Below, in pieces: positions 4,919-53,742 of a stretch of DNA of 64,000 nucleotides. How positions within the stretch are numbered: position 1 is the stretch's first letter; the number at the start of each line of letters is the position of its first letter. Position numbers and translations under genes: made by a program. A model generated the notes under the pieces. That model was not told where the DNA came from, searched no databases, and saw nothing but the letters and a program-made list of their open reading frames with translations. Source of the DNA: Selenobaculum gibii. Its GTDB lineage: Bacteria > Bacillota > Negativicutes > ICN-92133. The stretch is taken from NCBI RefSeq assembly GCF_030273445.1, contig NZ_CP120678.1, positions 1,589,501-1,653,500 of the forward strand, in the 5' to 3' direction.

Positions 4919-5734
4919 TTATTCGTTTCCATACTTCATAACCAAATTCTCTAGCTCTGCAAAAGTTAATGGTGTAGGAACATTTAATTCGTTATTATCG
5001 GTAATTTTTTTTGCGAGATTGCGATAGACATCTGCTTGTGCAGAATCTGGTGCCCACTCAATCACCGTCTGACGATTTACCTCAGCTTGATTTACAGATC
5101 TATCACGCGGAATAAATTGAATTAACCGCGCATTCAATCTTTGTGCGAACTCTTCTAATAATTCTTTTTCCTGCATTACATTGCGACTATTTCCGATAAT
5201 TCCGCCCAATCTGACCTTCCCACGCGCAGCAAATTTTTGAATTCCTTTAGCGATATTATTTGCTGCATAAAGAGACATCAATTCCCCCGAGGATACAATG
5301 TAAATATCCGTTGCATAGCCTTCACGAATCGGTACTGCGAAACCGCCACAAACAACATCACCCAAAACATCGTATAAAATGATATCCTCTTCCTCAAGTG
5401 TCGATAACGACCTAAGCAAATCAAGTGCAACGATAATCCCTCTTCCTGCGCAGCCAACTCCAGGTTCAGGACCGCCTGCCTCAATGCACTTAATTCCATG
5501 AAATCCTGTGTGGATGATATCTTCTGCCGCGACTTCTCCCGTTTCACTATCTCTTACCGCATCCAAAACAGTTTGCTTACAAATATGTCCTAATAAAAGA
5601 CGCGTGGAGTCATTTTTCGGATCGCAGCCAATCTGGCATACTTTTTTTCCCATTTCACTAAAAGCTGCTGAAACATTTGATGCTGTCGTAGATTTCCCGA
5701 TTCCACCTTTTCCGTAAAATGCAATTTTCTTCAT
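4919..5734 (-). CDS. NifH/BchL/CfbC-like Fe-S ATPase (nitrogenase-like reductase component)
   Basis: A 271-residue homodimeric-type iron protein. Visible features are the P-loop GKGGIGKST (residues 8-16), the switch region GCDPKNDST (36-44), and the two cluster cysteines expected at the dimer interface: C95 in [13 protein letters not shown] and C129 in [12 protein letters not shown]. Such proteins pass ATP-driven electrons to a NifDK-like partner; relatives reduce N2, protochlorophyllide, chlorophyllide or Ni-sirohydrochlorin. Partners encoded nearby (9118-11698) are not authentic NifDK, and no nifB, nifEN or other fix genes are present, so nitrogen fixation is unlikely. It is the last gene of a riboswitch-controlled transcript behind chlI/chlD-like genes, which points to tetrapyrrole chemistry. 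GGGGAG sits 6 nt before the ATG. Confidence 0.9.
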
Positions 5735-5760
5735 TTTCTTCTCCCCAATATAATCAAAGT

Positions 5761-7668
5761 CTATCCCGCTGTAATATTGCGAACGATATGTACAATATTT
5801 TCCTGTGATAATTGTTTTAAACTAAAATATGTTGCGCCCATTTCACGAGCAAGATTTTTAGCGATACCTAATTTTATAAAATCAGTTTCTGTATCTATCA
5901 CTACCGATGTTACATTGGATTCACGCAATCGCTCAGCCGTACGCATTGCTTCTTTTACTGCATCTTCACCTGCATTTGCTCTGCCATCAGTAAGCAATAC
6001 GAGCACCGGCTCTTGTTCCTTATCTTTTTTATTCATTGCAGTCAGTGTCATCAAGGCCGTATCAAGCCCTTCTGCCAAAGGTGTTTTTCCACCTGTCGGC
6101 ATTTGTTGTAGACACTTTTGCGCTAAATCAACACTGCGTGTAATCGGCAAAAGCACCTCCGCTTTATCACGACGAAATGCAATCATGCCCACTTTATCAC
6201 GTTTTTGATACGCTTCTTGCAGCATATAAAAAATTGCACCTTTTACGGCTTTCATCCGCGTTCTCGCCCCCATTGAGCCGCTGGCATCAACAAGAAATAG
6301 AAAAGTATTGCCAATGCGTTTTTCACGAACTTTTTGTCTAAGGTCTTCCTGCTGAATATTTAATGCGCAGCCATTCTCACTGCGCATCCGTTGAAATGGT
6401 GCGGCGGCGCGAATCGTTGCATCAAACGCCAAGTCCTCAATCTTGCCTTTTGGCATTGACGCCCTAACGTATCGCCCTTGTTTTAAATCAGTTCGCGTAG
6501 TGCTGCGCTTGCCACTGCCACGGCGAATCATACGATCTTTGCCCATATCTAGCATCATCTTTGGTAATTGAAAAGTTTTATCAATTTCAGCTGTTTGCTC
6601 TTCTGGCGCTAGCTGATTTTCCGGATTGTCTGGTGTTTCCTCTGTTTTATCATCTTCTTGCTCAGATTCACTTTCATCATCGTCCTCTTGCCCATCCTCG
6701 TCTGCCGACGGTGGTGGTAATTCAGATTCTTCCTGCTCATCATTATTTTCTGTATCATTATTCTCTTCTTGTTCGTTTTGTTCTTGCTCTTCCTGCTCCT
6801 GGGGTTGCTGCTGAGGAAGCTGACGCATTCGATGTACCAAAACAAACATCGCTGCTTCATCCATATCCTTAGGCAAGATATACAACCGTTCTTCAAGTGC
6901 CGCAATCGCTTTTGCTGCTTCTAATAAATAGATTTCCGCTCGATGACCTGCGCAAAATGATTTTGCACACATTTGCGCTGCTAACTGCATCATCGCTTCT
7001 GATACTTCAATTTGCGAAACAATTGCTGTTGCTTTTTTTATTTTCTCTGCTAAGGTTTCTATATCTGTCGCATAACGAGCTTTAAACATTTGACGGTTTT
7101 TCTCAAAATCTAAAAGCAATTTTACAATCTGAACCCGTTCCTCAACCTCTATTGCATTTGTCGTTTCCGCATACATGCCAAAGCGATCTAAAATTTGCGC
7201 AGACAACGTGCCTTCTTCCGGATTCATTGTTCCAATTACGATATAATTTGCTTCATGCGAAAACGAAATTCCTTCGCGTTCAATTCGATTTATCCCTGCA
7301 ATATTGGTATCTAAAATCGCCGTTAACAATTCACTGCGCAGTAAATTTACTTCATCAATATAAAGAATATTGTTATTTGCTTTCGCCAGAATTCCCGGTA
7401 AAAATTTTCTTTTCCCCTCTTGTATGGCATATTCCAGATCAATATTACCAAACAACATATCTTCCGTAGCATTGAGCGGTAAATCTACACATCGCTTATC
7501 ACCACTGACTTCACGTATCGAACGTACAAGTGTCGATTTTGCCGTGCCCTTTGGTCCGCCAATTAATATTCCACCCGCTTTTGGATTAACCAGAGCAATC
7601 ATGAGTCCTTTTTTGACCTGCTCTTGCCCAACAATTGCCGCAAACGGATATGCAGATGGTATCATCAT
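5761..7668 (-). CDS. ChlD/BchD-like metal-chelatase subunit (AAA+ and VWA domains)
   Basis: About 635 residues in three parts: an N-terminal AAA+ module with P-loop [10 protein letters not shown] and [10 protein letters not shown] Walker B; a very acidic Q/E/D-rich linker (about residues 290-365); and a C-terminal VWA domain with an intact MIDAS start, DASGSMG, plus a later TDGRA segment. This is the architecture of the D subunit of class I (ATP-dependent) chelatases, which with ChlI forms the motor that drives a ChlH/CobN subunit. Unlike many ChlD proteins its Walker A looks functional. I choose the ATG at 7668 (GGGAGG 8 nt upstream) over the longer frame to 7692. It lies between the chlI-like and nifH-like genes with short gaps. 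Confidence 0.88.
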
Positions 7669-7692
7669 CTTTCTTTCCTCCCACAAAACCAT

Positions 7693-8718
7693 TTACTCTG
7701 CAAGTAAAGCTTCAACTTTATCCCAATCCAAGGCACCTTCTTCAAATGGACGACGGCGCATTCTATGCGGCAATACCAATTTTGCCGCATTTTTTATATC
7801 TTCAAGTAAGACTTCTTCTCTACCATCAAAAGCAGCCAAGGTCATCGCTGTTTTAATCGTTGTAATATCACTGCGATGGCCATCGACGCCTAATTCTATC
7901 GCCATTTTAGCAACTGCAACTAAAAGTTCATCAGAAATCGTTACGTTTGTTAAAATTTTTCTTGCTTGAATAATTTTTGTTGCTAAAGCTTCTTGCTCCT
8001 CTTGACAATCTGCAATAAAAGTTTCCGGGGCAGCTTCATAAGCAAGACGTCTTTTGATGACTTCCACCCTTTTTTCCGGTTCATGTTCACCAGTAACAAC
8101 TACAGATAGTCCAAATCGATCTAACAATTGTGGACGAATATCGCCTTCTTCCGGATTCATTGTCCCAACAAGGACAAATCTCGCCGGATGGGAGTAGGAC
8201 ACCCCTTCACGTTCAACCGTATTAATTCCCATTGCTGCCGCATCTAAAAGAACATCAACGACATGATCATCAAGTAGATTAATTTCATCAACATAAAGAA
8301 TATTGCGATTCGCTTGGGCAAGAATCCCGGCTTCAAATTTCTTTTCTCCATGTTTAATCGCATGTTCAATGTCAAGTGTCCCAACCACGCGATCTTCCGT
8401 TGCACTTACCGGCAATTCCACCACGCGCATTTTTACCGCATGATGACTTGCTAATTTATGTTCTTGCTGTTTCTTCTGGCAAGCTTCACAAAGCAAATTC
8501 GCTTCACTTGGATCACAGTGGAATTGACATCCATCAACAACTTCCATCGCCGGTAAAAGTTCTGCCAAAGCTCTGACCGCAGTTGATTTTGCCGTTCCTT
8601 TTTCCCCTTTAATTAAAACACCACCCAATGATGGATTAATGACATTTAAAATTAAAGATAATTTCATTTCTTCCTGTCCAACGATAGCTGTAAACGGATA
8701 TACTACTTTTCTTTTCAT
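7693..8718 (-). CDS. ChlI/BchI-like AAA+ chelatase subunit with Cys4 insert
   Basis: A 341-residue AAA+ ATPase of the magnesium/cobalt chelatase I-subunit family: P-loop GEKGTAKST (residues 38-46), Walker [34 protein letters not shown] sensor region. It carries a short insert after helix 1 with four cysteines, C64, C68, C77 and C80 (C-x3-C-x8-C-x2-C), which could hold zinc or an Fe-S cluster and is absent from plant/cyanobacterial ChlI. It should hydrolyse ATP with the D subunit to power metal insertion or removal by a CobN-type protein. It is first in a transcript whose leader has a MerR-type promoter and a cobalamin riboswitch. AAGGAG lies 7 nt before the ATG. Confidence 0.9.
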
Positions 8719-8752
8719 GTTTTTACTCCTTCAATTTAAACTATGCTCATAC

Positions 8753-8785
8753 AAAAAAGCCTTTTCGCAAAAGCAAAAAGGCGTT
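8753..8785 (-). terminator. Intrinsic terminator of cobalamin riboswitch A
   Basis: Minus strand: GCCTTTT...AAAAGGC stem followed by a run of Ts, placed between the aptamer and the chlI-like start codon. This is the expected expression platform of a B12 riboswitch that terminates transcription when ligand is bound. Confidence 0.8.
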
Positions 8786-8839
8786 AAATTCCATATCTAT
8801 ACCTACAAATGCATATAGCATTGTATAGTTACAGTATCT

Positions 8840-9031
8840 TTCACCTTCCTATCGCTCGTAGGATTTCATGGCAAAATGAAGCTAGGCAGTTCTTCTGACT
8901 CTGTATCATCGCTTCTCCACGCCTTCCCAGAATATATCCAGTGACATCTTTGTGGAGTTACTCCCCATTACAGCGGCGGGACCGTACCGGTTTTTCACCG
9001 ATTTCCCTATTAAGCCTTTCGGCACCTATCT
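8840..9031 (-). promoter_or_regulatory. Cobalamin riboswitch A (leader of the chlI-chlD-nifH-like genes)
   Basis: Read on the minus strand it shows the B12 element landmarks in order: ATAGGTGCCGAAAGGC at the 5' end, TAATAGGGAA, CGGTCCCGCCGCTGT, TGTCACTGG, GGGAAGGCG, the CAGAAGAACTGCC box and a last hairpin (CCTACGAGCGATAGG) whose loop can kiss the core. An intrinsic terminator follows. High adenosylcobalamin should switch the downstream genes off. Confidence 0.93.
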
Positions 9032-9070
9032 TCTCAATATGAATTTGTCGAAATGATTGCATCGTTTTCC

Positions 9071-9101
9071 ACCATACACTATATAGTGGTCATACAGTCA
9101 A
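9071..9101 (-). promoter_or_regulatory. MerR-type promoter A (19-bp spacer)
   Basis: On the minus strand, -35 TTGACT (9101-9096) and -10 TATGGT (9076-9071) are separated by 19 bp, two more than a normal sigma-A promoter. The spacer carries the dyad CTGTATGA-CCA-CTATATAG, shared with the promoters at 17071 and 53743. The long spacer with a dyad centred at spacer base 8 is the arrangement that MerR-family activators untwist. It would transcribe riboswitch A. Confidence 0.8.
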
Positions 9102-9117
9102 GATTTTTTAATGTTTT

Positions 9118-10419
9118 TTATTTTTCAACTTTTGCCGGATGTAAGTAAGCAATCACATGAAACACTTCTATCACTTCCGCCATAAAGTGCTTCCATCCCA
9201 AAACACCTGCATAGGGACGTTCTGCAACAGGAACACCTTGCATTGGCATAAGAAAATTTTTAAAAATCATCCGATCATATTGCCCAACTTCCAGTCTAGT
9301 TTGCCAGTCCCCAAGGACAAGCGAAATACCTGCTTCTTCAACAGATAAAGTATCTTGTTTTACCTGCCATGCCCTAACGCCTTGAATCATTGGATATTCT
9401 GCTTTATTCGGGCCTTCTATTTTGAGATAAATATCATTAAATTCAGGGAACTCTGTTTTTAGTGCTTCTACGATTCCATAAGCAACTCCGTAAGGAAGCG
9501 TTAAATATACGTCGCCAAAGCCAAAGTTTTTATAATCCGCTTTGAGCTGAAAAATTGCTTGATCCAGCTTTTCTTGATTGATGTCGATTTCTGTTTCTAG
9601 TTTTTCTGTACAGATATTGATCTGTAATTTTTCTGCAATCCGATTTAACCAGGCAATGGAACATTGCATTCCATAAGGTGTAGGCGCAATAAGGTAATCT
9701 TGCCCCCATTCTTCTGCTAACCGTTTTGCCGCTTCAACTCCAAGTTCCGGAGATAAAACAATATTGCAAGCAGCCAATGGCAATTGCATCATCTCAGCTA
9801 GAGAAGTTTCATCTGCACCAAGGCAAACACCAACTTCAATCCCACAGGATATAAGCATTCGCTTGATTTCAGCTAAATCCCCTTGCCAATTTGGATAGTT
9901 ATTGCACCAGCCAAAAAGATTTACGCGATTTTTCCGCACAACTTCTTTTTTAACTTTTACCTTTGCAGTAACTAAGTCAAGAATTTTATCTAATGCTTCC
10001 TGATACCCTTCCCAAAATTCTCCCTTAAGTCCGCCTGCATCAACCGCAATAATCTCACAAGCTAAATTAGCTCTATGACAAATCCCCTGAATGTCATCAC
10101 CGATTAAGCTGACTGAGCAGCTGTTGATGACTGCAATCATTTTAGGATTACATTCTTTTTTTACTTCTTCTAACCCCAGCAAAAGCGCATCATCTGCGCC
10201 GTACAACAAATCGATTTCCTTTACTTCACTACAAAAGATTCTTCGCTCATATTTTTTCTCGACTCTTGCCATCTCGCGTTCGGCAATCGTTGCACACCAA
10301 CGAGGCCCGTTTATCAAAATCGCACAATCTTTTAGACTCAAAAAAAATGAGGCTGCGCCCGCCATTTCACAACGACTTTTGCACGGCAGCCACCGCTGCA
10401 ATTTCTGATTAGTATTCAT
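9118..10419 (-). CDS. NifD/BchN/CfbD-like nitrogenase-superfamily subunit 1
   Basis: A 433-residue protein when started at 10419 (GGAGG 7 nt upstream). It belongs to the oxidoreductase/nitrogenase component 1 superfamily: three cysteines stand where the shared P-cluster-type ligands of NifD lie, C17 (RCEMAGA), C42 (NGPRWCA) and C101 (NSCSVSLIGDDI). I see no motif marking it as true NifD, and with about 430 residues it is shorter than NifD (about 480-500). Its start overlaps the end of the sister gene by 11 nt, so both are likely made together as a heteromer that receives electrons from the NifH-like protein at 4919. The most probable substrate class is a tetrapyrrole, inferred from the CobN/ChlI/ChlD/CbiZ neighbours. 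Confidence 0.82.
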   Translation of the reverse strand: MNTNQKLQRWLPCKSRCEMAGAASFFLSLKDCAILINGPRWCATIAEREMARVEKKYERRIFCSEVKEIDLLYGADDALLLGLEEVKKECNPKMIAVINSCSVSLIGDDIQGICHRANLACEIIAVDAGGLKGEFWEGYQEALDKILDLVTAKVKVKKEVVRKNRVNLFGWCNNYPNWQGDLAEIKRMLISCGIEVGVCLGADETSLAEMMQLPLAACNIVLSPELGVEAAKRLAEEWGQDYLIAPTPYGMQCSIAWLNRIAEKLQINICTEKLETEIDINQEKLDQAIFQLKADYKNFGFGDVYLTLPYGVAYGIVEALKTEFPEFNDIYLKIEGPNKAEYPMIQGVRAWQVKQDTLSVEEAGISLVLGDWQTRLEVGQYDRMIFKNFLMPMQGVPVAERPYAGVLGWKHFMAEVIEVFHVIAYLHPAKVEK

Positions 10420-11698
10420 ATAGAATCCTCCTGCCGTGTCCATGAATTGCCATAGATACTTTATTTAGCAGATTTTCTAGACCCCAAATGCCAACTTGTT
10501 GAATTGAGATAGACAACTGATGGGGAAGATCAATTAAATCTGTCGTCGTTAAAACAAAGTCCACTTGCTCTGCCAGCGTTTTTATCTCTTCTTCTGTATA
10601 GCAGGGAATATCCGTTAGCTCCATGATTCGCTTGCGTTGCTCTGCTTTTTCTTTACTCGTTAAATCATTATGTAAAACTACCGCTTTAAGTTCTGCACCC
10701 ACAGCTGATAACGTTTCTAAATGAAACTTCGGATCAAAATAACGGCTTGCATACCCAATGACAAAAATGTAACTTTTTCCCGACAAAACTTCGCGTTTTT
10801 TTTGTAAAAACTTTTCCAGACGTGTATTTTCTATTTTCCAGGCTTGTTTAGCTTCTGCTTCGCACGCTAAAACTTCTCCGATTTTTTCAAACCATACTTT
10901 CGTTTCTGCCATCCCTTTAGGATAGTTCCCCGTATAACACTTCGTTTGATAACGCTCAGCCAACACTCTTGCATATTCTTGCATCTTGGGATAATATTCA
11001 CGCGCAATTCCTACCGACAAAATTAAATCCGCTTTGGGAATCATCGCAAATTCCTCTTTTGTCATCGTATTGGGCGGAAATAAAATACGTGTAAATCCAA
11101 AATACTGAAGCAGTCGTTTTATTTCACGAACATTATTTTCATTGCCTGCTCCACTATTTTCACCAATGATAACGGCAAGCTTTTCTTTTTTCTCTCGGTC
11201 TTTCGGCTTAATTGTTGCAAAGCGTTCCAGCAAAGTTTCTAGCATCTTGATGTTATGTTCCGTATAATGCTTACTCATAAAGCCGGCACCCGACACAACA
11301 ATAATCGGTAACTTTGTCTTTTCCTCGACATCCTTGCATACCGCTTCGACATCATCGCCAATTACACCGGCTGTGCATCCGGGAACAACAATGATATATT
11401 GCACATTCTCCATTTGTGAAATATCCAGCAAGCATTGGCGAAGAATCCTTTCTCCGCCAAAGATAGCTTCTTTATCCGATATGCCAGTTACAAACAGATT
11501 GTTTTTCTCCGGCAGCATTGCTAAAGGATCACGCAGCAGTCCGCGCCGTTTTATACTCCAATAATTACGCAAAGCTAAATGAGAGCAAGCTTTTGGTGTA
11601 TGAAACACTACCACTGCACCAGGATTACAAGAAACAGATATGTAGGCATTTCCCAAATTACAGTAAACGAGATTTTTTCGTTCTGATTGCCGAATCAT
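10409..11698 (-). CDS. NifE/K-like nitrogenase-superfamily subunit 2
   Basis: A 429-residue component-1-type protein. Candidate cluster ligands are C24 (SCNPGA), C38 (HTPKACSHL) and C108 (PGCTAGVIGDDV), and the ISDKEAIFGGE segment (73-83) matches the conserved DE-x-VFGG loop of NifD/E/K proteins. A further C13 is nearby. It overlaps the subunit-1 gene at its end and follows cobN by 15 nt with GGGGAGG 7 nt before the ATG, so cobN and both reductase subunits form one operon. The two subunits plus the NifH-like ATPase give a complete nitrogenase-like reductase. Substrate unknown. Confidence 0.82.
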   Translation of the reverse strand: MIRQSERKNLVYCNLGNAYISVSCNPGAVVVFHTPKACSHLALRNYWSIKRRGLLRDPLAMLPEKNNLFVTGISDKEAIFGGERILRQCLLDISQMENVQYIIVVPGCTAGVIGDDVEAVCKDVEEKTKLPIIVVSGAGFMSKHYTEHNIKMLETLLERFATIKPKDREKKEKLAVIIGENSGAGNENNVREIKRLLQYFGFTRILFPPNTMTKEEFAMIPKADLILSVGIAREYYPKMQEYARVLAERYQTKCYTGNYPKGMAETKVWFEKIGEVLACEAEAKQAWKIENTRLEKFLQKKREVLSGKSYIFVIGYASRYFDPKFHLETLSAVGAELKAVVLHNDLTSKEKAEQRKRIMELTDIPCYTEEEIKTLAEQVDFVLTTTDLIDLPHQLSISIQQVGIWGLENLLNKVSMAIHGHGRRILYEY

Positions 11699-11713
11699 TC
11701 CTTCGCCTCCCCG

Positions 11714-14700
11714 TTAAGCATTCGCTTCACTGCGCTCTTCCAGTTCACCTTCAAGCGATAAGTAAAGCTTTTGCAATTCTTCCTTCGTCTCCGCTTTCGC
11801 ATTCCACAATCCGCGTTGCTCCGCTTCGAGCAATACTTCAGTCAACCGTTGCAATGCCCATGGATTTACTTCCTTCATCCATTCCTGCATTTCTTTATCA
11901 AATGCATATTTCTCTGCATATTTCTCATACATCCAGTCTTCCATCACATTACTGGTTGCATCCCATTGATAACTGTGTGCAACATAATTTGCTAAATCCT
12001 GTGCACCTTTATAGCCATGTTTTTTCATGCCTTGGATGAACTTAGGGTTGATCGCTTCGCCTCTAAATAATCGTTTTGTTTCTTCTTCTAAACTGCGCAT
12101 TTCCACTTTACTGCGATCACTGCTGTCACCGCAATACGAACGCGGTTGTTTGCCGCTTAAGGCGCGAACCGTCGCAATCATCCCACCATGATAAGCATTA
12201 AAATCATCCGAACTGAGCATATGACTTTCACGGTTATCTTCATTTTTTATCGTCACATTCAAACTCGCCATGCGTTTTTTAAACAATTCCGGACGGTATT
12301 CCCCCTTGCCCTTTGCGCCATACGCATGTCCGCCAAAACGAACATATACATTTGCCAAATCCTCAATCGTTTCCCAATTTTTCGATTCGAGCAAATCGCC
12401 AATTCCCGCGCCATATGCACCCGGCGGATCGCCAAAAATACGATAAGATGCCTGTTGCCAAGCACTCTCCTTGTCAACACCTTCTGCTTCCAATTGCGCT
12501 GCGTCTTCTAAAACATGCTTTCTGATATAATTCATATCAATCGGTTCATCAAGCTCGGCAATTTTCTCTACCGCTTTATCAAGCCACAAAATTGCATCCG
12601 GCATACTATCGCGAAACAGTCCGCTGATTCGTCCCGTCACGTCGATGCGTGGACGTTTTAATTCTTCTAATGGGACAACATCCACATCAATTACGCGCAT
12701 ACTGCCGCGTTGCCAAACCGGTTTTAACCCCATTAAATACAAAAATTCAGCAATGCATTGTCCATGGCTGCGCATATTTGCCCCTGCCCATAATACAATG
12801 CCGACACATTCCGGGTATCTGCCTTCTTCGTGAATATAACGCTCAATCACTTCATCGCCCATTTTCTTGCCGATTTCCCAAGCAGCCGGCGTTGGCAGAG
12901 TTCGTGGATCTACGCCATAAAAATTACGTCCCGTAGGCAGTAAATCCGCTCCGCCGCTTGTCGGCGCGCCAGCGGCACTAGGTTCAATATATTCCCCTTG
13001 CAAAGCAGCCAACGTATTTGAAATCTCCTGCGTAGTTTTTTGTAAATTCGGTACAATGGTCGTACAAATATATTCCGCAACACAACTTACTTTTGCATAG
13101 GCTTCTTCATTTAATTCACCTAACCATGCGATTTCTTTTAATTGCTCTACAGCCATTGAGCTAAAATCTTTATTTGCTAATAAAAGAACGATTTCTTTAC
13201 TCTTTTCGTTTAATTCATCAACAAATGCGCCATAAGTCTTCGTATTGCCCGCCATCATCGTTGCACTGTTTTCTAAAAGCTCATAATAATCAAAACCATA
13301 TGCATGTGCCAACGTTTGTCTAAGCGAAGGTTTATCTCCATTTTCTAGGCGAGTCAACGCTAAGATGTATTCAATCATGTCATCGCCTTGCGGCGGGCGA
13401 CCTAAAATATGAAGTCCCGTACGAATCTGCATATTTTTTATATCTGTTACATACGCATGAATTTTTCCGATATAATCATCAAACGTTTCCGCTTCTGCCT
13501 CTTTAATATCTTCCTCTAAATTGGCGGCTTTTACTTTTTCTCTGACGAGTGCTTGTATTGTTTTCATTGAATCCGGTTGCGTCGTTTTAAAATGACAATA
13601 TTCATCTAAGACTTTTTCTAATTCCTCCAGCTCATCATATGTGCCAGCCTGACTCATCGGTGGCGTCAAATAACTGATCAAACAGGCGGCACTGCGCCTT
13701 TTCGCTTGTATTCCTTCACCGACAATCGTAATCCAGTACGGATAAATGTTTGGCATATCACCGATTGAAATATCCGGATAACACTTTCCCGACATGCCGG
13801 CACCTTTACCCGGTAACCATTCCAAAGATCCATGCGTCCCGACATGAATTAAAACATCCGCTTGCCAAATGTCCCGCAGCCAATGATAAAATCCAATGTA
13901 GTGGTGCGTTGGCGCACAGTCTGGCGAGTGAAGAAGTTTTCCCGGATCTTCACCAAAACCACGCGGCGGTTGTACCGTGATGAACACATTTCCTTTTAAC
14001 GTCCCGGGAATCAACAGTTCTCCATCATAGTTAAATACTTCTCCCGGTGCTTTTCCCCAATCATTTTGGAGTTGGTCTTTCGTCTTTTCATCCAAAGGTT
14101 TAAAAAAATCTAAATACTGCTGGGCGGATAAGTGTTCGGCACGTTCAATTTGTTTTTCCGTAATATAACGACGATCATTGGTCGCATTTGCCAATAGTTC
14201 CTCCATGAAGCTTTTACTGTTTTCAGGAATAGAATCCACGTTGTATCCTGCGTCTTGCATTTCGGCAAGTAAAAGCCTAACACTTTCCGGAGAGTCCAAT
14301 CCTGCGGCACTGCCAATATTAGAATTTAGTGCAGGATAATTATGAAATACAATTCCTACTCTTTTCTCTTGATTCGGTTTGTAACGAAGATTTGCCCATT
14401 TTTGCGCCTTGCGTACGACTAAATCAATGCGCTCTTCAAGCGCTTGATAACTGGCAATTCCCCGCCCGGTATCCTCTTTTGTCGCAATTGGTGCGGAATG
14501 TAAAATGCCATCAAATTCAGGCAAACTCACACTAACAGAAATCTCCATCGGCGTCATGCCTTCTGTACTTTTTTCCCATTCCACTAGTGGATTAAACAAA
14601 GTATACGCTTGCAAAACAGGTACATTTAACGCTTGAATCTCAGATAAATCTAAAGCCCGCGTTGCTGTTAAAGAAAATTTAATCGTATTAATTAAAACAT

Positions 14701-15439
14701 CAATCACTACATTTTCACCGTCATGAAAATATTTATCAAACGCATCTTTTAATCCTGGAGCTCCAATTAATGGATTCGCTTGACCGTTGGTAAACACAAC
14801 AATTGCATTCATCCCGCGCCGCTCTATTTCTCGAATGATCGCATTTTGATACGACAAGTCCTGCAAAATCCATTCATCACGATAGAAAATCATACCAATT
14901 GTTGGACGATTGGGGCGAATAAATTTATTTTTATATTCAGATAAATCCTGATAAGTTTTTTCACTATCCGGATGATAAATTCCGTTCCAAGGTAAAAGGT
15001 ACGGCTCTTCAAATTCACAGGTTTGTTGACAAAAATGTGCAAGCAGCCATAACATACAGTTGGCAATATTATCAGCACCACCATAATTAAAGTACTGATA
15101 AATGCGCTTTTCCTCTTCATCAGAAACCCCATATTTAAGTAAGTCATTTCCAGCATCCGCAACTAAAAAAAGATGGCGGATTTTTCTTTCTTGCAAAAAG
15201 GAAGAAGTGTTTTGTAAAAAGCGACAATCTAGCCCCGTTCCCATCCAACGGACTAAAATAATATCTTGCGCCTCTAACTTCGTTTGCCATTCTCTCCCCC
15301 ATGGCGTAGATTCAGCGATTGTTTTACTTTCGCAACGTGCTTTAATGCCCTTCTGGTTTATTGATTCACTCGCTTGATTCCAAAAATAAATCTGTCGTTC
15401 AATATTTGTTAAAAATAATATTTTCCCCTGAACGTCCAT
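11714..15439 (-). CDS. CobN/BchH-like large chelatase subunit (paralogue 1)
   Basis: A 1241-residue CobN/magnesium-chelatase H family protein of normal length. Conserved blocks are visible: QPPRGFGEDPGKLLHSPD, HVGTHGSLEWLPGKG, PTSGGADLLPTGRNFYGVDP, LKRPRIDVTGRISGLFRDS and GDPPGAYGAGIG. In aerobic B12 synthesis CobN inserts cobalt with CobST; BchH/ChlH inserts Mg with ChlID; the CobN-like HmuS of Bacteroidetes haem loci is reported to act in metal removal. Here it is fused in operon with nitrogenase-like subunits and cbiZ, and ChlI/ChlD homologues lie downstream, so it likely binds the macrocycle handled by this system. Its ATG overlaps the cbiZ stop codon (TGATG), implying translational coupling. 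Direction of chelation and metal are not determinable. Confidence 0.9.
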   Translation of the reverse strand: MDVQGKILFLTNIERQIYFWNQASESINQKGIKARCESKTIAESTPWGREWQTKLEAQDIILVRWMGTGLDCRFLQNTSSFLQERKIRHLFLVADAGNDLLKYGVSDEEEKRIYQYFNYGGADNIANCMLWLLAHFCQQTCEFEEPYLLPWNGIYHPDSEKTYQDLSEYKNKFIRPNRPTIGMIFYRDEWILQDLSYQNAIIREIERRGMNAIVVFTNGQANPLIGAPGLKDAFDKYFHDGENVVIDVLINTIKFSLTATRALDLSEIQALNVPVLQAYTLFNPLVEWEKSTEGMTPMEISVSVSLPEFDGILHSAPIATKEDTGRGIASYQALEERIDLVVRKAQKWANLRYKPNQEKRVGIVFHNYPALNSNIGSAAGLDSPESVRLLLAEMQDAGYNVDSIPENSKSFMEELLANATNDRRYITEKQIERAEHLSAQQYLDFFKPLDEKTKDQLQNDWGKAPGEVFNYDGELLIPGTLKGNVFITVQPPRGFGEDPGKLLHSPDCAPTHHYIGFYHWLRDIWQADVLIHVGTHGSLEWLPGKGAGMSGKCYPDISIGDMPNIYPYWITIVGEGIQAKRRSAACLISYLTPPMSQAGTYDELEELEKVLDEYCHFKTTQPDSMKTIQALVREKVKAANLEEDIKEAEAETFDDYIGKIHAYVTDIKNMQIRTGLHILGRPPQGDDMIEYILALTRLENGDKPSLRQTLAHAYGFDYYELLENSATMMAGNTKTYGAFVDELNEKSKEIVLLLANKDFSSMAVEQLKEIAWLGELNEEAYAKVSCVAEYICTTIVPNLQKTTQEISNTLAALQGEYIEPSAAGAPTSGGADLLPTGRNFYGVDPRTLPTPAAWEIGKKMGDEVIERYIHEEGRYPECVGIVLWAGANMRSHGQCIAEFLYLMGLKPVWQRGSMRVIDVDVVPLEELKRPRIDVTGRISGLFRDSMPDAILWLDKAVEKIAELDEPIDMNYIRKHVLEDAAQLEAEGVDKESAWQQASYRIFGDPPGAYGAGIGDLLESKNWETIEDLANVYVRFGGHAYGAKGKGEYRPELFKKRMASLNVTIKNEDNRESHMLSSDDFNAYHGGMIATVRALSGKQPRSYCGDSSDRSKVEMRSLEEETKRLFRGEAINPKFIQGMKKHGYKGAQDLANYVAHSYQWDATSNVMEDWMYEKYAEKYAFDKEMQEWMKEVNPWALQRLTEVLLEAEQRGLWNAKAETKEELQKLYLSLEGELEERSEANA

Positions 15440-16551
15440 CAGTTTTCACTTTCTCCTTCTTCATTTCTCCGATGTAAACAATTTTGTAACAGCGTTGCCA
15501 ATACTCTTACCACGCCTTTTGAAAAACATTCCACCGAACTTTCTTCTATTTCAATAATTTCAGTCTGATAACTCTCGCCTAAAATACGAAGAAGCTGATT
15601 TGCCGCAGGTAGTATCTCCTCTTTTGTAAGCAACCCCCATAAGAGTTGGTCTAGTAAGTGAATATAAAGGGATAGATATGTCACCATTACACTCTCTTTT
15701 ACTACCTTGTCTAGCCTTTCTAAAAAAGCGGGTTTAATCACCGGATTTTTTTCTAAAGTGCAATACATTTCCCATACTAAATCTGAAGTTACTCCGAATC
15801 GCTTCATCCTCTTTAATACATCATGCTGATATTTAGGATTTAGACCAGTTTGCCTCTCAAGTGCCTCTTTTACCGCACCCATAACAACTTTCCCAATCAG
15901 CTCACCCATTTTTGAATGTTTGCCTGCACTTTCTAAATAAAGTGACGAATCAGCATTTGCAATGACAATTGTTTGATCTGTTCCCGAACCAGTCGCCAAC
16001 CCCGTTGAATAATTGCTTCCCGCCATGAGCTCTTGAATGGCCGCCGTTTTTGCCTCCGTACAAGTGACTAACGCACGCGCTAAAGTTCCCGGCGGCATAT
16101 CGCTATCAAGCACCAGCATAATGTTAATCGTCCCCAAGCGGTTTGGTTTTTCGAGTGGTTTATAATACGTAGCAGGATCACCGACTCTACCACCATTTAC
16201 TTCTATTCCACCCGTAACAATTGCCGTTACTGTTAACTCTTCATGAGATAAAGAGTGAATTGCTACATTTTCCATATCTGCGGCTGTTCCCATACCTGAT
16301 ACAGTTTCCGGATCTAATCCTATTCGTTTGGCGATGATTTTCATATGCTCTTCATAAGTTTCCGCCAGCATCTCACATGCCATTCCTGCACCACATTTAC
16401 CATCATGATTAAACACAGCAGTCAAATCTTCATGATATCCCCCATGATAAACGGAAGTACTAAGTACTTTGCGTTTTCCATCAAAAAACATTACAATACT
16501 TCTTTCATAACGATAGACTTTATCACCCGTAGAAACTTCATGTATTTTCAT
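15439..16551 (-). CDS. cbiZ: Adenosylcobinamide amidohydrolase (CbiZ family)
   Basis: A protein of about 370 residues starting at 16551 (GAGAGG 9 nt upstream). The CbiZ core is recognisable: NGGRVGDPATYY, GTINIMLVLDSDM, LVTCTEAKTAAIQELM and ATGSGTDQTIVI. CbiZ cleaves the aminopropanol side chain of adenosylcobinamide to give adenosylcobyric acid, the salvage/remodelling route used by archaea and many bacteria. Here it leads an operon with cobN and nitrogenase-like genes, strong evidence that the substrate of the block is a corrinoid or is connected to corrinoid salvage. The tail of about 110 residues beyond the core is helical and I do not recognise it. A terminator lies just upstream, after the small His-rich gene. 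Confidence 0.85.
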   Translation of the reverse strand: MKIHEVSTGDKVYRYERSIVMFFDGKRKVLSTSVYHGGYHEDLTAVFNHDGKCGAGMACEMLAETYEEHMKIIAKRIGLDPETVSGMGTAADMENVAIHSLSHEELTVTAIVTGGIEVNGGRVGDPATYYKPLEKPNRLGTINIMLVLDSDMPPGTLARALVTCTEAKTAAIQELMAGSNYSTGLATGSGTDQTIVIANADSSLYLESAGKHSKMGELIGKVVMGAVKEALERQTGLNPKYQHDVLKRMKRFGVTSDLVWEMYCTLEKNPVIKPAFLERLDKVVKESVMVTYLSLYIHLLDQLLWGLLTKEEILPAANQLLRILGESYQTEIIEIEESSVECFSKGVVRVLATLLQNCLHRRNEEGESEN

Positions 16552-16579
16552 TTTGCTTTTCCTCTCATATAAAAACTTT

Positions 16580-16617
16580 AAAGAAAAACGAAAAACCGTC
16601 CGCAAAGGGACGGTTTT
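16580..16617 (-). terminator. Terminator/attenuator between the His-rich gene and cbiZ
   Basis: A 10-bp stem (AAAACCGTCC at 16592-16601, GGACGGTTTT at 16608-16617) is followed on the minus strand by TTTTTCGTTTTT. With no evident promoter between it and cbiZ, it probably lets part of the transcription through, so the small upstream gene would be made in excess. A second 10-bp hairpin (16650-16679) lacks a T run. Confidence 0.8.
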
Positions 16618-16707: not shown

Positions 16708-17034
16708 TTAGGAATGTTTCGTATGCCCTTTTGCATTTCCTGTCACGATATTTTGAAAAATTTGATGTACTTCTTCGGAACTTTTTCCATTTTCCATCGC
16801 TTTTTTCGCGTGAATTACTGCCAAGCGATAATTTTTATGCGCCTCATCCGTAGGAATTGAATCAATATCCATTGGATCAAACTCCATAATTTTATGAAAA
16901 ATTGCATGAATTTCTTCCGAAGACTTTCCTGCTTTTTTTGCATGGTCTACATGTTTCATTGCACTTTCATAACGATGTTTTGCATGTGGATTATCTGGTA
17001 TTTTATACTCTGGATGTTTTTTCTCCATTGTCAT
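16708..17034 (-). CDS. Small His-rich protein with two internal repeats, unknown function
   Basis: A 108-residue soluble protein with 12 histidines and no signal peptide. It is built of two tandem units of about 38 residues (residues 12-49 and 60-96), each starting IP, then a helix with H/K/A and ending GKSSEE(I/V)H-x-IF. I do not recognise the family. The repeated histidine positions (H43/H90 and others) suggest binding of a metal or a metallo-tetrapyrrole, an inference only. It is first behind MerR-type promoter B, divergent from merR, and followed by a terminator and then cbiZ-cobN-nif-like genes, so it may be an abundant carrier or chaperone for the pathway. GAGGTG lies 7 nt upstream of the ATG. 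Confidence 0.75.
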   Translation of the reverse strand: MTMEKKHPEYKIPDNPHAKHRYESAMKHVDHAKKAGKSSEEIHAIFHKIMEFDPMDIDSIPTDEAHKNYRLAVIHAKKAMENGKSSEEVHQIFQNIVTGNAKGHTKHS

Positions 17035-17070: not shown

Positions 17071-17101
17071 ATTATATGCTATATAGTGGTCATACAGTCA
17101 A
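17071..17101 (-). promoter_or_regulatory. MerR-type promoter B (19-bp spacer)
   Basis: Minus strand: -35 TTGACT (17101-17096), -10 TATAAT (17076-17071), spacer exactly 19 bp with the dyad CTGTATGA-CCA-CTATATAG. The -35 and the first 16 bases of the spacer are identical to promoter A. It faces the small His-rich gene and sits in the merR divergent region. Confidence 0.85.
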
Positions 17102-17154: not shown

Positions 17155-17182
17155 TTGACATAAAATTTTCTTTTGATAATAA
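17155..17182 (+). promoter_or_regulatory. Probable promoter of merR
   Basis: TTGACA at 17155-17160 and TAATAA at 17177-17182 with a 16-bp spacer (other A/T-rich -10 choices overlap). It lies about 55 bp from promoter B in the opposite direction. Confidence 0.5.
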
Positions 17183-17237
17183 TAAAACTAAATAAATTTG
17201 AACGGAATAAATTCATTTGTATAATGAGGAGTGCACT

Positions 17238-18074
17238 ATGGAAAACGAAAAAAATTATTTTACTGCTGGCGAATTGGCTTCCTTATATGGAATTCCCAAA
17301 CAAACATTATTGTATTATGATAAAAACGAATTACTCATCCCCGCTTTTGTCAATAAAAATGGCTATCGTTATTATTCCGTTTCACAATATCTAGTCCTTG
17401 AAATCATTCTAAATATGCGCAAATTAAATATATCTGTACATGATATTAAGCTATATCTTGAAAACCGTAGCGATGAAAATTTCGGGAAAATATTGCAAGA
17501 CAAAATAAAAGAATGTAATGAACTTATCGATGATACACAAAAAGTAAAAAATAGCCTTGAATTATCTTTAGCCACTTTAGAAAAGATTCCAAAAATTCGA
17601 CTTAATCAAATAGAATTAAGCTTTCAACAGTCAAAAATTTTGCTACTCAGTCCCCCAATTACCAAAACTACACAAATAAAAGACCGCGTAAAAACTCTTG
17701 CCCATCATAACCAAGCTGCTTTTTCCAAAAAACATTTTAAAGAATTTACGACCGGTTGGATTATTGATAAAGATGATTTTTTTGCTAAAAAATTTAATCG
17801 GTCAATTCAATATTTCACCCCTGTATCTCATTCCTTTTCAAAAAAACATTGTTATACCCGTCCTGAAGGCTTTTATATTTCAATTTTTTTTGAAGGAACT
17901 TATTATCAAAAAGCATCTTCGATCTATTTGCGCTTAGAGGATTTTATCAAACGAAATCATTTAATAGTGGTTGGAGATATCTACGTATTTCCAATCAAAA
18001 ATCATTGGCTCACAGAAGATACTAAAAGTTATATTAATCAGATTTCTTTTCAAGTAGAGTATCAAAATGAGTGA
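17238..18074 (+). CDS. MerR-family transcriptional regulator with C-terminal ligand-binding domain
   Basis: A 278-residue regulator (start 17238, AGGAG 6 nt upstream; the longer frame from 17217 is less likely). N-terminal winged helix typical of MerR: FTAGELASLYGIPKQTLLYYDK then NGYRYYS, followed by a long dimerisation helix (about residues 75-115) and a C-terminal region of about 150 residues whose layout resembles the BmrR/GyrI-like small-molecule-binding fold. There is no Cys pattern of metal-sensing MerR proteins, so an organic effector is more likely. It is transcribed away from promoter B and is the obvious candidate to activate promoters A, B and D, all with 19-bp spacers. The effector is unknown; a corrinoid or other tetrapyrrole is an inference from the targets. 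Confidence 0.88.
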   Translation: MENEKNYFTAGELASLYGIPKQTLLYYDKNELLIPAFVNKNGYRYYSVSQYLVLEIILNMRKLNISVHDIKLYLENRSDENFGKILQDKIKECNELIDDTQKVKNSLELSLATLEKIPKIRLNQIELSFQQSKILLLSPPITKTTQIKDRVKTLAHHNQAAFSKKHFKEFTTGWIIDKDDFFAKKFNRSIQYFTPVSHSFSKKHCYTRPEGFYISIFFEGTYYQKASSIYLRLEDFIKRNHLIVVGDIYVFPIKNHWLTEDTKSYINQISFQVEYQNE

Positions 18075-38299: not shown

Positions 38300-41200
38300 C
38301 TACTTTAATAACCTAGCTTTCCACGCCGGAACATCCTCTGGTGTATAAAGATTCACTGCACTGCCTTGAAAATCCCCATCAATTTCACCAACGGACTCTT
38401 CCATCCAGCCTTCTACTTCTAAATGTGATTTTTTCAACGCTTCTAAAACCTCGTTTTCAGGCTTCCATAAATTTCTCTGCACAGCTTCAAGCATACGACG
38501 ATTGATATCTTCCATTGCCCATGGATTATGCTCTTTAAACCACGCCTGCATATCTTTATCCATAATGTAAGTTTGGGCAATCGCATCAAATATCCAATCC
38601 CCTACTGCTCCACTTGTTGCATCCCATCCATAAACATTGGCAATGCGTTTCGCGATTTCCCCAGCACCCTTATAACCATTCTCTTTCATGCCTTCCATCC
38701 ATTGAGGATTGAATAACCTCGTCTGCACTGTTTCGGCGATTTCTTCATCTAAACTAGCAATTCTTACTTTTCGCTCATTGCGCGTATCGCCATAATACAT
38801 TTTGATTTCACGATTTTTTTGCAAGAGCTTTGCTGTCGTTGCAAGACCGCCCATATAGCTAAAATGTGAAGCCGAACCTAATAAATCATGTGCATCATTC
38901 GACGATTTATTATAGATAAGGTCAACGGTTGCCAGCTGGTTTTTTAATTGTTGTAAGGAAGTTTTTGCACTACCATTGCTTCCATAGAGATGAGCGCTCC
39001 ATGTTAAAAAAACATCTGCTAAATCTTGCTCATTTTGCCAAGCTGAAGCTAAAATTGCAAGGTTAATCCCCGTTCCATAGGTATTTTCCTGCCCGCCAAA
39101 AATTCTCGTCGCTGCAATTTCCCAACTCTCTGGCGTATCTTCTGCTAAATTTTCTAAGGTATGCTTTCTTACAAAATTTTCATGTATAGGTTCCGGTAGT
39201 CGTGCAACAGTCTGAATCACTTCATTGAGATATTCGGGAATATTGGGATAAGCATCCCGTAATACCCCACTGATTCTAAGCGTAACATCAATGCGCGGAC
39301 GTTTTAGCTCATCAATTGCTTGCACCGTAAAGCCTTGAATTTTCCCACTTTCATTCCACTTTGGCACAACGCCAAGCAATGCGAGAATTTGCGCAACGAC
39401 TTCCCCATCTGACCACATGCAATCCGAAGCCCATAAAACAATCGCACAATTTTCCGGATATCTTCCGGATTCTTTTTGATAACGCAGAATTAATTCTTCG
39501 GCTAAGTTTTGACCTATTTTCCAGGCTGCCTTCGTTGGAATCCCCGTAGGATCTACACTATAGAAATTTCTTCCCGTCGGTAAAACATTACTGCGCCCAC
39601 GAATAATAAGGCCTGCTGGCCCCGTTGGTAAATACCCACCCGTTAATCCCTGCAAAATGCCCTGAATTTCATCAGATGCATCTATGTCCAAAGACATTTT
39701 TTTAATTCGCTGTTGCCAGCAATCTAATTTTGAAATTTTTTCATAAGATTTTATTTGCTCCCCAAGAATAAACCGCGCCACTAATTCGCTATGTTCATTG
39801 CCTATGATGAACATAGCAATAAATTCTTTTTCATATTCTGCAATTGCGTCGAGCAGTTCGTCATAGGTCTTAGCAAAAGCTTGACTATAACTGTATGGTT
39901 TTTCTAACAATTCATCGTAATCTAAGCCTATAATTTCAGCAATAAGCCTACTTAGATTACCTTCTGCCCCGCCATCGTAAGCCAATACCATTCGTATGTA
40001 CTCCATTTTTTCTTTGCCTTCCGGCATCTTGCCTAAGGTATGCATTCCTTTTGGACACATGCGATGTTTTAATCGCACTATTTTTTGATGCAAGTGGCAG
40101 ATTGTCTGCTCTTCATCTTTTTCATTTTTCTCTTCTGCCAGATATTTTTCAGCAATTGCAAGGGAAAGAATCTTTTGTCTGAGCGTATCAGCTCGGCATT
40201 TTTGCTCATGATTTAATCGTGCATACGCATTAAGTAACACCGCTAATTTTTCCATCGCACCATAGGGCGCAACATTTTGCATCATCACTTGCATATGTCC
40301 AATTAACGTTGCATAACTTTTGCGCTTTGCAATTGCCCCCTCCGCAGGGTTGTCTGTATTATAAAGATAAAAATTGGGCATCGTTCCCAAAGTAAGTTCA
40401 GGATAACAACTTTCTGTTAAACCAATTGATTTTCCCGGTAAGAACTCCAAGCTTCCATGCGTTCCTACATGAACAACTGCGTCAGCTCCCCACATTTCTT
40501 CAAAACAACGATACGTTGCTACATATTGATGCGTTGGTGGACAAAGTGGATTATGTAAAATCTTGCAGACCTTTCCATCACATCTCGCCCCCGCACAGCC
40601 ACGCTTTGGCTGTACACACACTAAAACATTGCCAAATTGAACACCTGTAACTAAAATCTTCTGATCATATACCATCGCTGGCGGAACTTCCTCCTGCTCT
40701 TCACCCGGAGGATTTCCCCATGTTTCCGTCATCTCTTTCTGGACTGATTTCGGGAAATGATTAAACCAACTAAGATACTCATCAACGCTGATACTTTTCC
40801 ATACGCCACCCTTTTTCACAATCTCTTCTACCGGCGTCCAGCGAAAATCTGAGATTGCTTTACGGTCCATAATCAGTTCAATCAATTTTTCTCCTGAATC
40901 AGGAATGGAGCCTACCTGATACCCAGCCAATTTCATTTTTTTCATCAACCGGACTAAACTTTCCAATGCATTTAATCCGGTTGCCGCTCCGACAGTGAGT
41001 TCCACACCATGACAAACACTATTATGTAAGATAAAAACGATTTTCTTTTCTCCATTATTTTTTCCGCGAAGCACCATCCACTTTTTAATTCTCCGACACA
41101 AAAACTGAATGCGTTCCAGTATAGGCACATGTGATGGAATTTCATCCCCATCCGCCTGTGTAGTCTCTTTTAAAGCGCCAATGACGATGGGCTCAATTAC

Positions 41201-42136
41201 ACCGCTACATTCTGGCATGGTAATCGAAGTCACAATAGATGTCGTTGGTATTCCAAACGGATTTTTTCGCCATTCCCCTTCTGTCTGGCTATTCATAATC
41301 ACACCTTTAAAAATCGGTACATTCAGCTCTTGTAACAGCGTATAGCCGGGATGTTCTTCAATTTTTTCTTTGCGATTACGAGAAATCAGAAACAATACTT
41401 GTAAATCAATGCATACATCAATCACCGGGCGCTTATTTTTCATAAAGTAATTTTCAATGATGGCAATATTATCTTGCCGCCCATTTTTAGGATCATGACG
41501 ATCAACGCTAAACACCGGCAAAGCATTATAGCCATTCGCGTGAATTTCTTTTATTAATGCATCTACAATCCCAGTATCATGATTTAGCCACATACTTCGG
41601 CTAAATAAAATTCCAATCGTTTTTCTTTCTTCCTGATAAAGAACAGGATTCGTTAAATATTCTTCTAAATTTTCTAGCACAATCGCTTTTTGCGGAACAT
41701 AAATGCCTTGCCAAGCAACTGCTTGCGGTGCATTTACTTGCACTTTAGCTCCCAATATTTCCTTTAATAAAAAATACAATGCATTTTTTACGTTTTCTTT
41801 GCCGCCAATCGTTAAGTAAGCTTGTACTATCGTTGGGAATTTTTCATTCACTGTAGTAAAAATAGAAAATTCCGGGCGATGTGATGTCGACAACATTGGC
41901 TTATTCTGTCCGATTATTTTTAACTGCATTGAAACTTCTTCCCAAACGCCGTGCGTAGATGGAATCAAAAAAATTAAATCTGCTTGTTCAGCCAAATAAG
42001 TAAGATATTCTTTTCTAAATACAGGATCTGATAGTCGATCGATGATTGCTAAATTGATTTCCACTTCTTTCATTTCTTGCTTTGCTTCCAAAAAAGACAT
42101 CATTTGATGACTTTCCAGCAAAATTGCCAATTTCAT
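38300..42136 (-). CDS. CobN-like large chelatase subunit (paralogue 2, divergent)
   Basis: A 1278-residue CobN-family protein, the most divergent of the four here. Family blocks are present: HVGTHGSLEFLPGK, VLPTGRNFYSVDPTGIPT, LKRPRIDVTLRISGVLRD. Where the others have PRGFGEDPGK...HSPD, it has PKRGCAGARCDGKVC and LC, giving cysteines C-x4-C-x4-C-x7-C next to the PPTHQY motif; these could bind metal or a cluster. The end lacks the common ...GELEER tail. It follows paralogue 3 by 18 nt and has GGGAGG 7 nt before the ATG. It could be a different metal specificity or a dechelatase; not determinable. Confidence 0.88.
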   Translation of the reverse strand: MKLAILLESHQMMSFLEAKQEMKEVEINLAIIDRLSDPVFRKEYLTYLAEQADLIFLIPSTHGVWEEVSMQLKIIGQNKPMLSTSHRPEFSIFTTVNEKFPTIVQAYLTIGGKENVKNALYFLLKEILGAKVQVNAPQAVAWQGIYVPQKAIVLENLEEYLTNPVLYQEERKTIGILFSRSMWLNHDTGIVDALIKEIHANGYNALPVFSVDRHDPKNGRQDNIAIIENYFMKNKRPVIDVCIDLQVLFLISRNRKEKIEEHPGYTLLQELNVPIFKGVIMNSQTEGEWRKNPFGIPTTSIVTSITMPECSGVIEPIVIGALKETTQADGDEIPSHVPILERIQFLCRRIKKWMVLRGKNNGEKKIVFILHNSVCHGVELTVGAATGLNALESLVRLMKKMKLAGYQVGSIPDSGEKLIELIMDRKAISDFRWTPVEEIVKKGGVWKSISVDEYLSWFNHFPKSVQKEMTETWGNPPGEEQEEVPPAMVYDQKILVTGVQFGNVLVCVQPKRGCAGARCDGKVCKILHNPLCPPTHQYVATYRCFEEMWGADAVVHVGTHGSLEFLPGKSIGLTESCYPELTLGTMPNFYLYNTDNPAEGAIAKRKSYATLIGHMQVMMQNVAPYGAMEKLAVLLNAYARLNHEQKCRADTLRQKILSLAIAEKYLAEEKNEKDEEQTICHLHQKIVRLKHRMCPKGMHTLGKMPEGKEKMEYIRMVLAYDGGAEGNLSRLIAEIIGLDYDELLEKPYSYSQAFAKTYDELLDAIAEYEKEFIAMFIIGNEHSELVARFILGEQIKSYEKISKLDCWQQRIKKMSLDIDASDEIQGILQGLTGGYLPTGPAGLIIRGRSNVLPTGRNFYSVDPTGIPTKAAWKIGQNLAEELILRYQKESGRYPENCAIVLWASDCMWSDGEVVAQILALLGVVPKWNESGKIQGFTVQAIDELKRPRIDVTLRISGVLRDAYPNIPEYLNEVIQTVARLPEPIHENFVRKHTLENLAEDTPESWEIAATRIFGGQENTYGTGINLAILASAWQNEQDLADVFLTWSAHLYGSNGSAKTSLQQLKNQLATVDLIYNKSSNDAHDLLGSASHFSYMGGLATTAKLLQKNREIKMYYGDTRNERKVRIASLDEEIAETVQTRLFNPQWMEGMKENGYKGAGEIAKRIANVYGWDATSGAVGDWIFDAIAQTYIMDKDMQAWFKEHNPWAMEDINRRMLEAVQRNLWKPENEVLEALKKSHLEVEGWMEESVGEIDGDFQGSAVNLYTPEDVPAWKARLLK

Positions 42137-45868: not shown

Positions 45869-45901
45869 CAAAATCCCTCCAAAAAACACTTATCCAAGCT
45901 C

Positions 45902-46678
45902 TTATGTAAATGAAATGATATTAAATTGCGTACTAGTAAATACTTTTTCCTTTTTATTAAAGTCCATCATTAATATTGCAGCTTCCCCCTGATAGGAAAA
46001 CTTCAGCTCTCCATCGATAATTGCCGCACTTTTCGCAATAAAACAATTCATTCCGCGTGTATTTCCCGTTTGGTTGCAAACAATCACAGGGCGTCCACCA
46101 CTCATTTTAGAGCAGCGTTCCCAAGCTTTCTCCGGAGGGCCGCCACAGCCTGGTGGCCAAGCAGCAATAACAAGAATTAATTCTGCTCCCATTTCACCAA
46201 GCTGCGCTCCATTTTCTCCATACCATGCATCGGCACAAACCAACACTCCTATAGATACTCCCTCATAACGCAAACAAGTCAATCTTTTACCAGCAGTTGA
46301 CCAACCTTCCGTTGCCGACCCTACAATTTTAAGTTTCCGATGCTTGTCGATAATTTCTCCTTTTGTATCAATAATCAAACAACTGTTATACTTTTTCCCA
46401 TCGTCATGATCGAGTTCACCACACCCGAGAAAAACTGTAACCTGTAATTCCTTTGCCAAATCTAAAACAGGTTGAATGATATTCGTAATCTCTTTCTCCC
46501 AAACATATTCTCGACCCAGTTGCGTAAAAAAATATCCTTGCAATGCCATCTCTGGCGTAAGAATCCATTTTGCACCAGAGTTTGCTGCCATTTTTATTGA
46601 TTTACATAAAACCTCTAGGTTTTTTTCTTGTGGTCCGCCACTTAAATTTAAATGTAATAATGCAATTTTCATCCCCAT
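45902..46678 (-). CDS. Carbon-nitrogen hydrolase (nitrilase superfamily amidase)
   Basis: A 258-residue nitrilase-fold enzyme with the complete catalytic triad: E43 (LTPEMAL), K115 (KHRKLKIV) and C148 (GVLVCADAW). This family hydrolyses amides or nitriles, often from small polyamines or deaminated glutathione. It sits between the binding-protein gene and cobN paralogue 3, so a side-chain amide of a corrinoid or other tetrapyrrole is an attractive substrate, but this is inferred only from context. AAGGA lies 5 nt before the first ATG; a second ATG two codons on is also possible. Confidence 0.85.
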   Translation of the reverse strand: MGMKIALLHLNLSGGPQEKNLEVLCKSIKMAANSGAKWILTPEMALQGYFFTQLGREYVWEKEITNIIQPVLDLAKELQVTVFLGCGELDHDDGKKYNSCLIIDTKGEIIDKHRKLKIVGSATEGWSTAGKRLTCLRYEGVSIGVLVCADAWYGENGAQLGEMGAELILVIAAWPPGCGGPPEKAWERCSKMSGGRPVIVCNQTGNTRGMNCFIAKSAAIIDGELKFSYQGEAAILMMDFNKKEKVFTSTQFNIISFT

Positions 46679-53425: not shown

Positions 53426-53462
53426 TGTAGATTCCTCCAAAAATAATTAATAGAAAAGAATA

Positions 53463-53717: not shown

Positions 53718-53742
53718 TGCGCGATTATGAAATTCGTTTTTC

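Follow-up and report, generated by a model that had tools for sequence, protein, structure and literature searches.

A MerR-type promoter and a cobalamin riboswitch in series ahead of chelatase and nitrogenase-like genes of Selenobaculum gibii, and their recurrence in Negativicutes

Cobalamin riboswitches of the usual RF00174 type (AdoCbl) combine a full aptamer, a P13-like hairpin and a terminator behind an ordinary promoter, and a few described systems add a second level of control. The Streptomyces nrdABS operon is acted on by the protein NrdR. The same operon is listed as having a B12 riboswitch (Borovok 2006, as cited in PMC3293853) and in this way joins a riboswitch to protein-level regulation, as does the locus described here; its protein regulator is a repressor of ribonucleotide reductase genes, whereas ours is a predicted MerR activator. 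In Listeria, AspocR is a B12-riboswitch antisense RNA whose expression goes up with propanediol, and AspocR and Rli55 join the riboswitch to a second, substrate signal (PocR or EutVW) (PMC8079631). There the riboswitch is carried by an antisense or sequestering transcript that implements substrate AND B12, whereas here it lies in an mRNA leader and the predicted logic is inducer AND NOT B12. The tandem SAM-I/AdoCbl riboswitch of metE is also a two-input gate on one transcript (PMC9481103), but it uses two RNA sensors with NOR logic, whereas one of the two inputs here would be a protein at the promoter. In the literature covered, which was open access with few subscription journals, we came across no account of a cobalamin riboswitch placed behind a MerR promoter. 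The statement in the initial annotation that no example had been described therefore holds for this pairing in that literature but not for the broader idea, which has relatives in AspocR and SAM-I/AdoCbl, and the series arrangement is apparently an undescribed control device.

BmrR and EcmrR are MerR-family proteins whose ligands are bulky aromatic compounds, and CarH is a MerR-family B12 photoreceptor with a B12-binding domain. CoaR is a MerR protein with a CbiC/CobH-like domain (PMC7689651). Like CarH and CoaR, the regulator described here is a MerR protein linked to corrinoid metabolism, but it differs from both in having a GyrI-like effector domain.

We analyzed a 64,000-nucleotide stretch of DNA (the window; G000:C1:1589501-1653500) from the closed, 2,679,003-bp genome of strain ICN-92133 (CP120678), the source of which was human faeces (PMC10491768). 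On the (-) strand, a MerR-type promoter at 9071-9101 consists of a -35 element TTGACT (9096-9101), a 19-bp spacer containing the dyad ACTGTAT-GACCACT-ATATAGT and a -10 element TATGGT (9071-9076). Its predicted start at about 9064 lies roughly 20 nt 5' of the Rfam edge, and 28 nt 5' of P1, of a cobalamin riboswitch aptamer at 8868-9044 on the same strand, which matches the whole RF00174 model (105.2 bits, E 2.7e-25; gathering score 31.5 bits). The aptamer is followed on that strand by a P13-like hairpin, UCCUACGAGCGAUAGGA (8842-8863), the 3' side of which runs on into AAGGUG, and by an intrinsic terminator, GCCTTTTTGCTTTTGCGAAAAGGC-TTTTTT (8753-8782; stem 8759-8782 plus U tract), ahead of chlI. 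The initial annotation, which had paired a MerR-type promoter serially with a cobalamin riboswitch and put the promoter's start about 30 nt before the aptamer, was borne out on the first point and close on the second. Apart from the ordinary promoter being replaced by a MerR-controlled one, the aptamer, hairpin and terminator are those of a usual RF00174 leader.

The expression platform of the chlI leader comprises this terminator and an alternative structure, in which AAGGUG from the 3' side of P13 could pair with CGCCUU (8778-8783) as a putative antiterminator. Folding of the two states gave -32.2 kcal/mol for the terminator and -29.8 kcal/mol for the antiterminator, and such near-equal energies are what a switching platform predicts. 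Strong terminators also close both other composite leaders of this genome. The genes behind the terminator, all on the (-) strand, encode a ChlI-like AAA+ chelatase motor (7693-8718), a ChlD-like AAA+/VWA chelatase motor (5761-7692) and a NifH-like reductase (4919-5734); chlI and chlD are the sole copies in the genome, and the reductase is its only true NifH and passes the nifH cut-off. A conventional promoter with a 16-18 bp spacer was considered for chlI and rejected, as none was found on the (-) strand between 8600 and 9300, nor was a second promoter of any sigma-70 type in that interval.

Searching the 2.68-Mb genome for the operator GACTGTATGACCACTATATAG with up to three mismatches returned four matches, compared with none for a reversed control. 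The 21-bp cores lie at 9079-9099, 17079-17099 and 53751-53771 in the window and at genome position 741968, and all four sites have TTGAC and a TAnnnT -10 element at 19 bp; the last three go beyond the initial annotation. Three of the four are no more than 40 nt from the Rfam edge of a cobalamin aptamer, of which the genome holds 14; in this genome alone, the probability that three of four sites would fall within 150 nt of an aptamer by chance is ~2e-10. At the other riboswitches of the genome, most of the best-scoring promoters have spacers of 15-18 bp. The third MerR-type promoter (TTGACT-19-TATGAT; 53743-53773, (-) strand) precedes an aptamer with a terminator after it (53558-53733, (-)) and a TonB-dependent receptor gene (51503-53440, (-)), whose operon continues with three cobN-like genes (47701-51420, 42155-45889 and 38300-42136) and genes for a periplasmic binding protein (46707-47714) and a CN-hydrolase (45902-46678). 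The fourth box has its own aptamer and precedes another TonB receptor gene at ~742 kb, after which a binding-protein gene looks truncated (145 aa; L013:9459-9896). Elsewhere in the genome, a divergent, low-scoring cobalamin-like element (G000:C1:722124-722336; 31.6 bits) is flanked by two ordinary riboswitches.

The remaining operator, beside merR and 8 kb away from the one at 9079-9099, is identical to it. It belongs to a promoter at 17071-17101 (TTGACT-19-TATAAT; (-) strand) that is divergent from merR and lacks a riboswitch. This promoter heads, on the (-) strand, a gene for a small His-rich protein of 108 aa (16708-17034), cbiZ with an adenosylcobinamide amidohydrolase domain (15439-16554; PF01955, E 5e-58), a cobN-like gene for a large chelatase subunit (11714-15439) and genes for NifD-like (10409-11698) and NifK-like (9118-10413) nitrogenase-component-1-like subunits, both PF00148. 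The small protein, which leads the operon of the MerR-only promoter in several Negativicutes genomes, contains two His-rich repeats (HAK/HKKA..GKSSEE.H.IF) and is a candidate binder of metal or tetrapyrrole. Between the small gene and cbiZ, a bidirectional terminator-like hairpin (16592-16617) may reduce transcription into cbiZ-cobN-nifDK, and MerR control of these genes is therefore possibly partial. Counting this operon, the window contains four CobN paralogs, but the genome only one ChlI/ChlD pair.

We extended the comparison to the class Negativicutes, in which the window genome is the sole member of its order in our set. Orthologs of MerR were 59-66% identical in G303, G295, G304 and G065 and 31-47% identical in other genomes, and their genes adjoin TonB receptors, binding proteins, CobN, ChlID, NifHDK, CbiZ and the small gene. 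Across 24 of these loci (447 kb), 42 boxes were identified with up to two mismatches, nearly all of them 5' of TonB, NifH, ChlI, CobN, binding-protein or small-protein genes; the reversed motif gave none. A TAnnnT element stood exactly 19 bp after the -35 hexamer in all 45 unique Negativicutes boxes, which had been chosen on operator and TTGA alone, leaving the -10 element and its spacing outside the selection. None of the same 45 sites had TAnnnT at a spacing of 15-18 or 20 bp, and the fraction that had it was 0.02 both at 21 bp and at 22 bp. With a stricter pattern, the box was present in 15 of 30 genomes with a merR ortholog compared to 0 of 30 without one, many of which nonetheless carry NifK-like genes, and this distribution ties the box to the MerR regulator. 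An exact-pattern scan of contigs returned one locus, in a Phascolarctobacterium MAG.

The pairing of box and aptamer was also found in other genomes, bringing the number of composite sites to 11 in seven genomes and five families. Among sequences 5' of 113 riboswitches from six genomes, ten had the box with no more than 3 of 24 mismatches (three each in G000 and G304; one each in G303, G295, G065 and G277), while the next best had 6 and the reversed control began at 7, a bimodal distribution. The eleventh site is in G032 (box at L157:8413, aptamer at 8500). Composite sites precede TonB receptors, CobN, CobN-ChlD-ChlI and, in the window, chlI-chlD-nifH, and boxes free of an aptamer usually precede the small gene, cbiZ, binding proteins or nifH; these gene sets suggest a preference for putting receptors and ATP-driven chelatase genes under the B12 check. 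The coupling is not obligatory, because many box-bearing genomes have no riboswitch at their MerR boxes. In G277, the aptamer is ~60 nt 5' of cobN with no clear terminator, and its abutting the gene in this way suggests translational control. Box and riboswitch are observed together in their anatomy, in their recurrence and in their conservation. The load of RF00174 matches was very high in G303 (31) and G304 (38), where several are close neighbors.

The regulator is encoded at 17238-18074 on the (+) strand behind its own sigma-70-like promoter (17155-17183) and is predicted to be a BmrR-type activator. It has an N-terminal MerR winged-helix HTH (PF13411, E 6e-12; PF00376), a long coiled coil and a GyrI-like C-terminal ligand domain (AlphaFold model, pLDDT 91.5), and a Foldseek search with the model matched BmrR (E 8.5e-15) and the C-terminal domain of EcmrR. 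It shares with BmrR, EcmrR and BrlR these three elements and a dyad in a 19-bp spacer, within the 19-20 bp at which BmrR-type operators place it. It differs from these known activators, to which it has ~19% identity over the full fold, in that its targets are tetrapyrrole related and it has its own conserved residue set, which includes His157. This residue is the same in all 28 orthologs and substituted in the most divergent paralogs; as a hypothesis, it could be the axial ligand for a metallo-tetrapyrrole. Two other sensor types were rejected. For a CarH-type sensor, Pfam finds MerR HTH domains alone, with no B12-binding domain, and the fold is GyrI-like; for a CoaR-type sensor, neither Pfam nor fold comparison finds a CbiC/CobH precorrin-isomerase-like domain.

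We consider it highly probable that a single regulon is controlled serially by a dedicated BmrR-type MerR activator and by B12 riboswitches, with the output 'inducer AND NOT B12'. The same logic, inducer present and B12 low, had been predicted in the initial annotation, and at the level of sequence it is supported by anatomy, within-genome recurrence and conservation in Negativicutes. From the arrangement we infer activation by MerR, the nature of its ligand, termination in vivo and the substrate. A MerR dimer would occupy the dyad within the spacer, which is over-long at 19 bp, and, once bound by inducer, would untwist the promoter and thereby let RNA polymerase start ~20 nt ahead of the aptamer. 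If B12 binds the aptamer of the nascent leader, P13 would form, followed by the terminator; if B12 is absent, the 3' side of P13 would pair with the 5' arm of the terminator and transcription would reach chlI-chlD-nifH. The same gate is predicted at the 53-kb TonB receptor/CobN operon and at the 742-kb TonB receptor, with the small protein-cbiZ-cobN-nifDK operon under MerR control alone. Dual control would thereby fall on the receptors and on ChlI, ChlD and NifH, the ATP-driven motor parts that are shared.

When B12 runs short, such a regulon would take up and process a corrinoid or a related metallo-tetrapyrrole, and the inducer is probably this substrate or a product of it. Import together with salvage or remodelling of this compound under B12 shortage is the most likely role, since it best fits the TonB receptors, the binding protein and CbiZ. 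The initial proposal was that the system obtains or makes a corrinoid and does not degrade surplus B12. Obtaining agrees with our reading, and the predicted repression by B12 argues against disposal of a surplus. Making is unlikely because a complete de novo cbi operon lies elsewhere in the genome, preceded by a riboswitch of its own but by no MerR box; for this reason we also rejected the idea that the system is itself the route of B12 biosynthesis. A bolder reading, possible but less likely than not, is that this MerR would be the first BmrR/GyrI-class sensor of a corrinoid or other metallo-tetrapyrrole, acting via His157. Together with the riboswitch it would compare unusable corrinoid or tetrapyrrole outside the cell with usable B12 inside, and control an undescribed nitrogenase-like/CobN/CbiZ pathway that reduces, demetallates or remodels the compound.

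We regard it as unlikely, though deserving of weight, that substrate and inducer are instead heme or another porphyrin, from which the CobN-like de-chelatases would win iron, with the riboswitch saving costly uptake when B12 is plentiful. An analogous case is HmuS, a CobN homolog that takes iron out of heme in gut Bacteroides (PMC12583661); the four CobN paralogs suggest substrates besides those of B12 synthesis, and the invariant His157 could axially ligate any metallo-tetrapyrrole. However, the predicted direct repression by B12 and the presence of CbiZ in the regulon indicate corrinoids, and HmuS is reported to require NADH, not ATP (PMC12583661), whereas the ATP motors ChlI and ChlD are co-regulated here. 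We continue to favor import and salvage of a corrinoid or related tetrapyrrole through an inducer AND NOT B12 gate. The regulon would represent a natural gate with two sensors, in which a protein activator is followed in series by a B12 riboswitch, and this arrangement is retained at several operons and across families of gut and environmental Negativicutes. The MerR box provides a computational handle by which the regulon of the uncharacterised nitrogenase-like/CobN/CbiZ pathway is defined, and a single reporter would then be enough to look for the inducer. The inducer would reveal the substrate of the pathway, which bears on corrinoid competition among gut bacteria.

MerR-family proteins can repress without inducer, and this MerR might be mainly a constitutive or stress-linked activator, or a repressor, leaving the riboswitch alone to carry physiological information. 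We find this improbable, given that the GyrI-like ligand domain is intact, with H157, W174, Y213 and H256-W257 conserved, and the 19-bp spacer is retained without exception. The contribution of the 9071-9101 promoter itself could be small if chlI-chlD-nifH were read mostly by run-through from cobN-nifDK: the nifK-like stop codon (9118) is only 16 bp from the -35 element, and chlI is possibly also read in this way because no terminator was found in the interval from nifK to the aptamer. Nonetheless, the promoter has a full operator and a -10 element at 19 bp, as do 44 others, and the remaining composite sites head separate transcription units, making a predominant role for run-through improbable. 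Run-through from nifK would also leave the logic of the gate unchanged, because the upstream promoter carries a MerR box too and every transcript crosses the riboswitch. Chance adjacency of palindrome and riboswitch in an AT-rich genome with 14 aptamers has a vanishingly small probability and is refuted by conservation, with three of four sites here, 11 sites in seven genomes and empty reversed-motif controls.

The regulated genes belong to superfamilies in common with the CfbCD, DPOR and COR reductases and the HmuS/CobN chelatases, but the component-1 subunits score far under the curated cut-offs of CfbD, BchN and BchB. For the NifK-like subunit, scores compared with equivalog cut-offs were 46 versus 268 bits for CfbD, 92 versus 490 for BchB and 51 versus 529 for BchZ. 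Against the nitrogenase NifD and NifK equivalogs they were 59.5 versus 653 and 37 versus 427 bits, which does not place the subunit among N2-fixing proteins. A protein scan of genome contigs with the NifK-like query gave no match; at class level, a NifK-like match was present in 142 of 380 Negativicutes genomes. The combination of nitrogenase-like HDK genes with CobN, CbiZ, a BtuFCD-like transporter and radical SAM genes (4919-15439 in the window; L051-L090) is widespread in the class.
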